Below, in pieces: positions 35,899 to 40,007 of a stretch of 64,000 nucleotides of DNA (its first letter is position 1; every line of letters starts with the position of its first letter). Below the pieces are notes generated by a model. That model saw only the letters and a program-made list of their open reading frames with translations. It was not told where the DNA came from and searched no databases. The translations under genes were made by a program, and so were the position numbers. The DNA is from Halobellus salinus (GTDB lineage: Archaea; Halobacteriota; Halobacteria; Halobacteriales; Haloferacaceae): contig NZ_BMOC01000001.1 of the NCBI RefSeq assembly GCF_014646875.1, forward strand, positions 349,410 through 413,409, read 5' to 3'.

Positions 35899-37042
35899 TT
35901 GTTCCTTGTTGATCTGCCTGCCCCAGCAAGGACAAGTACCCTACTCGCACAGACAGGATTGAATGCGTCTCGCCTTCGATGACGGTACGCTTCTCCTTGA
36001 AAACGCTCCTGACACTGTGCCGTATGCCGAATGGGACGACCGTGTTGACGAGTATCGGGCACAGGCACAGTACTATCGTGATATTCGAGAGTGGGCAACT
36101 GAGCCCGATGGACAACCTACCCTCGAAGAATCAACAGCTACTGTGGCTGAGTTCAAGAACGACGCTCGCTCTTATTCCAAGTTTCACCTCACGCCGTCCG
36201 TTGCTATCGAGCCACGAGATTACCAGCAAGACGCTCTCTCGGCGTGGCAGGATAGCGACCGTCAGGGAAGCGTTGTCCTCCCGACAGGGAGTGGAAAGAC
36301 CTTCCTCGCCGTTCAAGCGATTGCTGATGCGGGTGTAAGCACACTCGTTGTCGTGCCGACTATCGACCTGATGAACCAGTGGCACGCTACGCTCACGAAC
36401 GCATTCGGCGATCAACTCCCTGATGGGGTTGGTGTTCTCGGCGGTGGAAGCCACAGCGTGGCGAACATCACGGTCACAACCTATGATTCCGCCTACCGCT
36501 ACATCAACGAGTACGGCGACAAGTTCGGACTCCTTGTTGTCGACGAGGTACACCATCTGCCAGCTCCGACCTACCAGCAGATTCCTGAAATGACGATTGC
36601 CCCGTATCGACTCGGACTCACAGCCACCTACGAGCGTGCTGACGGCAAACACGAGGAGTTGGAAGACCTACTCGGAACGGTCGTCTATCGAGAAGAGGTT
36701 GATGAGCTTGCTGGCGAGTACCTCAGCGAGTACGAAACCATCCACCTCGGGGTGAGCTAACAGAAGACGAGCGGGAACAGTACGATGAAGAGTACGGGAT
36801 TTACCGTGACTACGTGGACAGTCAGGAGTTCGACCTCTGGAAGGAACGTGGGTATCAGGAATTTCTCAAACGAACCTCATACGACCCACAGGGGCGGCGG
36901 GCGCTCATCGCCAAACAACGAGCGGAGACCATCGCTCGTACTGCCGACAAGAAGCTCGACACGCTCGACAACCTGCTGAAACGACACCACGACGACCGTA
37001 CCATCATCTTCACCGCCAACAACGAGTTTGCATACGACATCT

Positions 37043-37050
37043 CTCAGGAA
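37043..37050 (+). repeat. Left copy of the 8-bp target-site duplication
   Basis: CTCAGGAA here is repeated exactly at 38340-38347 on the other side of the inserted cassette. One copy belongs to the original helicase reading frame. Confidence 0.85.
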
Positions 37051-38339
37051 GGCTCTTACCGAAGATAGCGAAACAGTCCTCTCTGGATTCTGTTAAGACA
37101 TGCTGTGCAAGATACACGGCGCTTATTCAGCACGGCTCGCCCCAGTTTGGCTGTTTCGCATCTTCGCCCTCGAATCCTGCCAACTTATCGAAATCGCCCG
37201 GCATGGAACTAATCTGCTCAACACACCACCCGCTGATATCCTGATTAAACGACCCAGCCATAAGGAACATCATCAACATATCTGTGACGCTGCTGGTGTC
37301 CCACTCCCCGATATCCTGATTAAACGACCCAGCCTCAGCGAACATCCCAAACATGTTTGTGACGCTGCTGGTGTCCCACTCCCCGATATCCTGATTAAAC
37401 GACTCAGCCATAAGGAACATCCTCTTCATATTTGTGACGCTGCTGGTGTCCCACCCGCCGATATCCTGATTAAACAACCCAGCCTCAGCGAACATCTTAT
37501 TCATACTTGTGACGCTGCTGGTGTCCCACCCGCCGATATCCTGATTAAACGACCCAGCATCCCTGAACATCGCCAACATAGTTGTGACGCTGCTGGTGTC
37601 CCACCCGCCGATATCCTGATTAAACGACTCAGCCCCGGCGAACATATACAACATACTTGTGACGCTGCTGGTGTCCCACCCACCGATATCCTGATTAAAC
37701 GATCCAGCATCCCTGAACATCGTCCGCATAGTTGTGACGCTGCTGGTGTCCCACCCGCCGATGTCCTGATTAAACGACTCAGCACGGAAGAACATCCCCC
37801 GCATAGTTGTGACGCTGCTGGTGTCCCACCCGCCGATGTCCTGATTAAACGACCCAGCCCCGGCGAACATCCCCAACATATCTGTGACGCTGCTGGTGTC
37901 CGCATTTGTTAGGTCAAATTCGCTCACGGCTGTCCCAACTTGGTCCTCGGTGAATGAACTCTCGCCAAAATTATGTTCTGAAAGTTCGCCATCCCCGAAT
38001 AACTCGCTGCTATCCGGGGGAAGCACCACACTCACTTCCTCTTCAGCAGTCTCTGTTCCTTCAGCAGTATCCGTCTCTTCAGCAGTATCCGTCTCTTCAG
38101 CAGTATCCGTCTCTTCAGCAGTATCCGTCTCTTCAGATGCACCGCACCCGGCAGTTCCAACTGCGCTTAACGCAGCGATTCCTGTAATGAACTGACGCCT
38201 ATCTGGCATAATGGGAAATTCATCTAAAGAGCAAAAGAATTAATGATAAGTCATACTGGTGTACACTTCTATATCTTGCATGCCAGCTAGTAGCAATATC
38301 AGCAGCCTGTCTGTTGTTTCACCAGATTAGGCAAGAGCC
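37051..38339. mobile_element. 1289-bp transposase-less cassette with terminal inverted repeats carrying a BspA-like gene
   Basis: The left end begins GGCTCTTACCGAAGATAGCG. The right end, read inward on the minus strand, begins GGCTCTTGCCTAATCTGGTG. About 19 of the first 26 positions match, including GGCTCTT and a GAAACA block. It is flanked by an 8-bp direct repeat, CTCAGGAA. The only gene inside is the lipoprotein gene at 37127-38209; I see no transposase. An 8-bp duplication with such ends is reminiscent of IS1595-type elements, but the family is a guess. It therefore looks like a mobile insertion cassette moved in trans. Confidence 0.8.
37127..38209 (-). CDS. BspA-like (DUF285) repeat lipoprotein, passenger of the cassette
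   Basis: The 360-aa protein has a Tat-type signal ([18 protein letters not shown]) and a lipobox ending TAGC near residue 22, so it is probably exported folded and lipid-anchored outside the cell. A low-complexity linker of four DTAEET units (18-bp DNA repeats) follows. The body is eight full copies of a 25-residue BspA/DUF285 repeat ([19 protein letters not shown]) with partial copies at both ends, and ends [15 protein letters not shown]. Such repeats form elongated surface proteins that bind other surfaces or proteins; the function here is unknown. It is transcribed against the interrupted helicase and is the only gene of the cassette. Confidence 0.85.
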
Positions 38340-38654
38340 CTCAGGAATTCATCGTCCCGTGTATCACACACCAGACCGAGACTGACGAACGAACGGAAAT
38401 TCTGGAGCGGTTTCGGACGGGAGAGTACTCGATGCTCGCCACCTCACAGGTGCTTGATGAGGGAATTGACGTGCCTGCGGCGAATGTCGGGATTATCCTC
38501 TCAGGGAGTGCGTCGAAACGGCAGTACGCACAACGGTTGGGGCGGATTCTCCGTCCGACAGATGACAAACAGCCAGCCCGACTGTACGAGATTATCGCCG
38601 AGGACACGATGGAGACCTACGTTTCCGAACAGCGTCGGCAGGGAGTGACTTCAG

Positions 38655-40007
38655 ATGCTAACAGCTGACCTCGCACGCTCACGCACGCACGAAGACAGCA
38701 TTACCCCGTTGCTCATTGAAACTGACGAGCAACAGTATCGAGAGACGGCTGCGGAACTCATCCAGATTTTCGAGGAGCATCTTGGCGAACCGAAAGGAGA
38801 ATTGGAAGATACGATTGATCAGCTTACTGTTGCGGATACCGACTACAAAATCGTCCAAGGGCTGGCGAAACTACTGAAAGACGAGTGTGAGTTCGAGACG
38901 GTTGCTCCAGTTGACCCACGGGAGATTCGACAGGAGCTTTTCGAGGTTGCAAACAGGAATCACCCGATTGTCCGCCAACCGACGCTCGGTGAGGATACTC
39001 AGTCCGTGTGGGTATACAGTACCGTTGCTGACCGACTGGGGATCTCGCTCGGAGAGTGCTATCGGGGAATGTATGCGGACTTAGAGGAAAACAAGCAACT
39101 CGTCCGCTTCGGACACCGTGTTTCCGATGGATATGAGAAGGTAGATGAGTCATCCACTACGACACGGTTAACCGGGGATAGTGAGGAGTCCTATGCCGAG
39201 GATGCCATCACAGTCGATTGGCTTCTCACTCGATACAATCTGGCTCTGGCACAGGCGGTACTCTATAATGCAACTGAGATGCGAATACGGGTCTGGGACT
39301 CATTTGCGACCGTCTTCAGTTATGTCAAGCTATTCGGCTTGATGCACCGCATCTATCCGATTGACAACGACGGCAATCGTGTCTCCAGTACGGACGTTGC
39401 TGACGGATATGAGGCGATTCTGGACGGAGCAGCATCTCTCTTCTCGAAATCACGGAAGTATGGGATCCGAATGGCGAACTTTCTGCCAGCCCTCCCGTTG
39501 TGCGACCGCTGGGAGATGGAAGCAGATATTCTTGATGATGAAGGTGGTTCACCCAATCGGACGCTCTCGTTTGAGCTTGACTACACGGAGGGATTGTCCT
39601 CGCACTACTCAGCACAGGGTGAGTTTGACTCGGACGTGGAACAGACGCTTGCCCAGAAGTGGGAACGAGCGAATACCGATTGGCAACTCCTCCGAGAGGA
39701 CGACGTGCTGGACTTGGGTGCAGAGGTAATGCTCCCCGATTTCGCTATCGAACACCCAGAGGGGCAACGGGTACTATTCGAGATTGTCGGCTTCTGGACG
39801 CCTGAGTATCTTGATGAGAAGCTGACCAAGATACGAGAGGCGAATCGTGACAACCTCATCGTTGCCGTCTCCGAACGACTGGACTGCTCGTCAGAAGACT
39901 TCAGCGGGATCGACGACCGTGTGCTATGGTTCAAATCTGGGATTCACGTCTACGATGTCGTTGAGTTGGCTGAGGAATACGCTATCGAGGTTTCGCCGAC
40001 TCAGTAG
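38655..40007 (+). CDS. Bax1-type nuclease (DUF790), XPB partner
   Basis: The 450-aa protein is of the DUF790 family. In Sulfolobus and other archaea this is Bax1, which binds XPB and cuts DNA near bubbles and junctions. The C-terminal nuclease domain is visible as WQLLREDDVLDLGAEVMLPDFAIEHPEGQRVLFEIVGFWTPEYLDEKL (about 345-400), a PD-(D/E)xK-like arrangement. The start (ATG 38655) overlaps the end of the helicase frame by 14 nt, the layout of a coupled operon. With the upstream helicase broken, this intact gene may be expressed weakly or act alone. Confidence 0.85.
   Translation: MLTADLARSRTHEDSITPLLIETDEQQYRETAAELIQIFEEHLGEPKGELEDTIDQLTVADTDYKIVQGLAKLLKDECEFETVAPVDPREIRQELFEVANRNHPIVRQPTLGEDTQSVWVYSTVADRLGISLGECYRGMYADLEENKQLVRFGHRVSDGYEKVDESSTTTRLTGDSEESYAEDAITVDWLLTRYNLALAQAVLYNATEMRIRVWDSFATVFSYVKLFGLMHRIYPIDNDGNRVSSTDVADGYEAILDGAASLFSKSRKYGIRMANFLPALPLCDRWEMEADILDDEGGSPNRTLSFELDYTEGLSSHYSAQGEFDSDVEQTLAQKWERANTDWQLLREDDVLDLGAEVMLPDFAIEHPEGQRVLFEIVGFWTPEYLDEKLTKIREANRDNLIVAVSERLDCSSEDFSGIDDRVLWFKSGIHVYDVVELAEEYAIEVSPTQ

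Follow-up and report, generated by a model that had tools for sequence, protein, structure and literature searches.

The window analyzed in this study is a stretch of 64,000 nucleotides of Halobellus salinus DNA. It contains an XPB-type helicase gene interrupted by an element of 1289 bp (37051-38339), followed by an intact DUF790 gene. The element carries a single open reading frame, which encodes 360 amino acids on the minus strand, and no transposase. Direct reading of the sequence gave 25-bp terminal inverted repeats, the right one a reverse complement, and an exact 8-bp target duplication outside them. The features are as follows.

35963..38669, plus strand: interrupted XPB-type helicase gene (N-terminal part matches Pfam ResIII and XPB_DRD)
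37043..37050, no strand: left target-duplication copy, CTCAGGAA (reading; empty site in 11 orthologues)
37051..37075, plus strand: left terminal inverted repeat, GGCTCTTACCGAAGATAGCGAAACA
37105..37132, plus strand: P half-site, GTGCAAGATACACGGCGCTTATTCAGCA (21.3 bits; cassette-end alignment; overlaps the cargo stop codon)
37127..38209, minus strand: cargo gene with 75-bp tandem repeats; its 360-aa product is a DUF285/PARCEL-repeat protein whose N-terminus is Tat/lipobox-like
38254..38281, minus strand: Q half-site, ATGCAAGATATAGAAGTGT..., degenerate (12 bits; cassette-end alignment and matrix)
38315..38339, minus strand: right terminal inverted repeat, GGCTCTTGCCTAATCTGGTGAAACA
38340..38347, no strand: right target-duplication copy, CTCAGGAA (direct reading)
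38655..40007, plus strand: DUF790 (Bax1-type) neighbour gene, intact (domain match and orthologues)

Both ends of the element scored 39-40 bits on the end matrix, and no position of the reversed control reached 16 bits in 2.8 Mb. The P half-site was the sole box in the window at 14 bits or more. The original prediction had named matching inverted ends, an exact 8-bp duplication and a single passenger gene for a Tat/lipobox DUF285 protein, and all three were borne out. The P and Q half-sites inside the ends, and the arrays of such sites described below, were absent from it.

We compared the interrupted helicase gene with its orthologues, which were intact at 469 aa. The joined flanks aligned without a gap across the insertion point in 11/11 orthologous helicase loci, so that the empty site sought by the original prediction exists elsewhere. 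Its claim that removal of the cassette exactly restores the helicase frame held locally at the insertion point but not for the full frame, in which 1 bp is missing between 36753 and 36754. This deletion is independent of the cassette. The helicase is thus doubly broken, and removing the cassette restores the frame only locally. DUF790 gave several matches in the host genome and was found in all 167 genomes searched. Since there are several DUF790 matches per genome, loss of the interrupted helicase copy may be tolerated. The idea that the lipoprotein gene has long been a fixed neighbour of the helicase, with coincidental end repeats, carries practically no weight: it is already refuted by the 11 orthologous loci, all without the gene, and identical ends bound other genes elsewhere.

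The cargo protein matched DUF285 (E=3e-105) and the PARCEL repeat model TIGR02167 (E=1e-55). Its N-terminus is Tat-like with a lipobox-like LSAVGTAGC, as judged by eye, and nine copies of a 75-bp repeat lie in register in the gene. PARCEL proteins were surveyed in 2010, and no archaeal example was found (PMC2996958). Of about 10 DUF285 loci in haloarchaea, at least 5 were found in this study to keep a recognizable cassette end (G000, G099 twice, one of these a remnant, G106 and G116); at the G385 locus the end was more weakly recognizable. G099 is another species of the host's genus. It has a 136-aa DUF285 relative beside an intact cassette end, at a locus other than the helicase gene, and over 250 bp inwards from this end the sequence is 78% identical to the window. 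The P dyad just past the stop codon was conserved in five DUF285 loci, and the sequence farther out differed. Separately, the DUF285 protein at L176 2436-2846 (G099) contains many fewer repeats of 25 residues than its counterpart in the window, which suggests that the repeats have contracted or expanded between the two. The proposal that adhesive lipoproteins spread among haloarchaea as cassettes is supported by the retained ends, but it is too narrow: DUF285 is rare (7/167 genomes of the family and 6/392 of the order), and the passengers of the cassette family are very diverse.

We next describe this family. The genomes were searched with a 19-base pattern taken from both window ends, with two mismatches allowed. 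The pattern matched 34/170 genomes of the family and 65/392 of the order, and the reversed pattern gave nearly zero matches. The outcome that would have told against the original prediction, ends bounding DNA in no other genome, was therefore not seen. An inward-facing pair of ends with an 8-bp duplication containing at most one mismatch was counted as a complete element. There were 33 distinct complete elements, with 24 exact duplications and 9 with one mismatch; the duplication was itself a selection criterion, which random 8-mers pass about 4 times in 10,000. A transposase was encoded by four of the 33, each about 1046 bp long. The one tested, the L060 transposase, matched the IS1595 model NF033547 (E=6e-26, 91.6 bits, cut-off 75). 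Thus, both the full-length transposase element and the other passengers that the original prediction had called for were found between the same ends.

The passengers of the remaining elements were mostly unrelated to one another. They include Tat lipoproteins, a type IV pilin, 7TM histidine kinases, a CPBP protease, acetyltransferases, a phosphate transporter, a chemoreceptor with a DICT protein, an FG-GAP lipoprotein and a GmrSD-type endonuclease. Halorubrum ezzemoulense, Halonotius and Halovenus are among the carriers identified by name. The same cargo family (proteins 64% identical) was found in L194 and L236 at two unrelated sites without flank similarity. Two single cassettes are also recorded here: one at L295 662-3379 (G385) carries the gene for the GmrSD-type restriction endonuclease, which might serve in defence, and one at L055 3138-6080 holds two lipoprotein genes in tandem, with 84% identity between their proteins. 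The B-type end had no match among phage records.

An IS1595-type transposase likely moves cassettes of the window type in trans. A close IS1595 transposase was not found in the host genome, where the IS1595 copies were only about 30% identical and had no window-type ends; current mobility of the window cassette is for this reason only putative. The autonomous IS1595 elements have in common with the cassettes only the first 25 bp and lack the P/Q half-sites. The case for trans-mobilization thus rests on similarity of ends and duplications. Two named IS1595 elements, ISHsi1 and ISHla12, were considered as partners and rejected, as their loci have different ends. The same ends in many genomes, the target duplications, the empty sites and the autonomous IS1595 elements together support the transposase-free mobile cassette of the original prediction. 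What we regard as secure is the nature of the window element: an inserted gene cassette that lacks a transposase and belongs to a haloarchaeal family that is widespread and end-related to IS1595-type elements.

Alignment of the cassette ends showed that they are alike for about 90 bp, comprising the end repeat, a spacer and then an imperfect dyad. The cargo sits between P, with a GCGC-type loop at one end, and Q, with a GAGG-type loop at the other; by a simple rule, P and Q were at opposite ends in 23/28 cassettes. P/Q dyads were also found without IS1595-type ends, either beside IS6-like ends GGCTCTGTTGAAA or between genes, in pairs arranged head to head. P/Q cassettes may therefore be carried by more than one type of transposon. 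The half-sites beside IS6-like ends are at L086 14108, L091 1571, L174 2673, L196 327 and L360 26441. We considered whether the P/Q sites contain a conserved hairpin and do not claim one: comparison of own with swapped arm pairing reached weak significance at carrier ends (p=0.003) and was not significant at double sites (p=0.42 and 0.69), and single-strand folding was mixed (z from -4.2 to +0.2).

Exchange of cargo was examined at single insertion sites. Plasmids of Haloarcula halophila and Haloarcula sp. GH36 carry cassettes (L227 and L228) with the same flanks and the same duplication, CGTCCAGT. The insertion site is identical and the ends are 95-96% identical over 75 bp, against a median identity of 63% for random cassette ends, whereas the cargo is unrelated, a 7TM kinase in L227 and a phosphate transporter in L228. 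Similarity between L227 and L228 breaks off within the dyads. The same insertion site is empty in plasmids of Halorientalis marina and Salinigranum marinum. Four Halorubrum ezzemoulense cassettes that differ in cargo have a common duplication, ATCTACAA, common ends and about 45 bp of outer flank, and three of the four adjoin the 3' end of a tyrosine recombinase gene. The simplest reading of these sequences would be one insertion followed by cargo replacement.

Such replacement could also occur in a plain mobile insertion cassette, in which the conserved ends of about 90 bp would be required by the transposase, P and Q would be subterminal transposase-binding repeats without a dedicated recombinase, and the cargo would now and then be replaced by homologous recombination between the ends. 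Mobile insertion cassettes are a known class, without transposase and movable by a related IS (PMC3129680). At each end, about 75-90 bp are retained in all carriers, and about 75 bp of homology could support recombination. This reading is nevertheless rather unlikely, because P/Q double sites occur between genes without these ends in 135 genomes, P/Q dyads lie beside IS6-like ends, and the autonomous IS1595 elements have no P/Q.

The P and Q halves form double sites of about 95 bp. A census with a 27-base pattern found them in 135/392 genomes and 54/95 genera, and the reversed pattern gave zero. Natronococcus sp. CG52 has eight double sites with a spacing of 37-38 bases over 20 kb, with zero in the reversed control. 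Among 93 distinct sites in the fetched loci, 40/41 neighbouring pairs had the same orientation, at a median spacing of 1.8 kb; the array loci were partly picked for holding several sites, which by itself gives no orientation bias, and tandem duplication could contribute. Arrays of double sites in one orientation lie on plasmids at L359 (NZ_CP099393.1 275000-320000) and L360 (NZ_CP100408.1 120000-168000).

A single event in such DNA was seen between two strains of Haloarcula marina. YSSS71 and DT1 are 98-99% identical around an MBL-fold gene, and YSSS71 has 637 bp, consisting of a double site and a small gene, that are absent from DT1 (L360 25775-26411 versus L365 4602-4631). Both junctions lie inside the 8-bp Q core, CTCTATAT, and the gained unit has no flanking duplication. 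The difference is a gain or loss of a gene together with a site, which is evidence against a repeat that simply moves from one intergenic region to another. It would be the outcome expected of site-specific cassette recombination, and junctions within an 8-bp core are a further point against a plain insertion cassette. Deletion via short homology (microhomology) is a possible explanation of this single event.

The double sites resemble dispersed REPIN/PATE-like repeats in having two imperfect dyads and a fixed spacer, and transposase-free repeats are abundant in Haloquadratum (PMC3119063). If they were such repeats, the arrays would be the result of repeated insertions. We consider this improbable given the shared orientation of neighbouring sites and the Haloarcula marina unit, in which site and gene are joined at the core without a flanking duplication. 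At the DUF285 loci, moreover, the P dyad stays with the gene and the outside changes.

We also examined whether recombinase genes lie near the sites. Short tyrosine recombinases (up to 260 aa) were within 10 kb of 12/78 sites, where 3.2 were expected (p=0.0002, position rotation); for longer ones the excess was not significant (6 against 2.3 expected, p=0.07). Short PF00589 proteins lie near some double-site arrays. This proximity is a statistical association only; such genes sit in islands generally. In four genomes, short tyrosine recombinase genes were also noted outside six cassette ends, at distances of 48-88 bp (L074, L079, L082, L092, L344 and L346).

Directional arrays of mostly short cassettes, sites of about 95 bp and nearby recombinase genes are also what a true integron system, with an IntI integrase and attC sites, would show had it entered haloarchaea. 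Such an entry is very improbable. No conserved GTTRRRY crossover motif or complement was found, by eye, in the consensus of the 93 double sites, and the recombinases near sites match only the general Phage_integrase family (PF00589). Halobacteria are also unmentioned in the main text of the 2022 archaeal integron survey (PMC9668308).

Taken together, we think it quite probable that the element in the helicase gene is a non-autonomous transposable cassette that depends on a transposase in trans and whose cargo, lying between P and Q, is loaded, swapped or lost at the P/Q cores. An IS1595-type transposase supplied in trans would have moved the cassette into the helicase gene. Recombination at the P/Q cores would load, swap or lose cargo, with the short tyrosine recombinases near some sites perhaps acting there, and the transposon ends would then move the loaded cassette. 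It is suggested that the cargo sits between the recombination-site halves of a broader, integron-like system. We give slightly better than an even chance to a haloarchaeal system of this kind, with single genes between P and Q in directional arrays on both plasmids and chromosomes of about a third of the examined genomes, gain, loss and swapping at the cores and capture of cassettes by IS1595-type ends, in which the window element would be a loaded carrier. Within this integron-like reading, IS6-type ends apparently capture cassettes as well.

Haloarchaea exchange genes extensively. Fixed ends with interchangeable single-gene cargo, and arrays in 54/95 genera, would, if true, be a testable route for the spread of genes such as those for surface proteins, sensors, transporters and restriction enzymes. 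The cassette is also a vehicle for PARCEL proteins in archaea. Neither this cassette system nor a general haloarchaeal cassette platform was found in the literature searched, in which subscription papers were mostly not included.

Among known systems, the window element has the features of a mobile insertion cassette: ends of an IS group, no transposase, one passenger, a duplication and an empty site. MIC231 of the Bacillus cereus group, described as modular in a paper citing De Palmenaer 2004 (PMC3129680), is alike in having IS-type ends, no transposase, a passenger gene and a cognate IS elsewhere. Compared via that citing paper, the window family differs in its IS1595-type rather than IS231 ends, its haloarchaeal hosts, its many unrelated passengers and its P/Q half-sites, which are common to gene arrays. 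ISH4 of Halobacterium belongs to the IS1595 family. It is 1012 bp long with 8-bp duplications (PMC10264941), and the likeness drawn here is in length and duplication size. The partner elements resemble the IS1595 family in their length of about 1046 bp, their IS1595-family transposase and their 8-bp duplications, whereas the window element has no transposase and some named IS1595 elements have other ends. The MITEs of Haloquadratum are short and too small to encode a transposase (PMC3119063); they are similarly transposase-free, moved in trans and flanked by target duplications. The window element itself is not classed as a MITE, since it is 1289 bp long with an intact 360-aa gene. The cargo resembles PARCEL repeat proteins in its DUF285/TIGR02167 repeats, its lipoprotein-like character and its link to mobile DNA (PMC2996958), but that survey reported none in archaea and here the protein lies in a haloarchaeal transposable cassette. 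Integron gene cassettes are similar in their two-part sites, their one-orientation arrays and gain or loss at the site core. The P/Q sites differ from theirs in sequence, and loaded cassettes here also sit between transposon ends.
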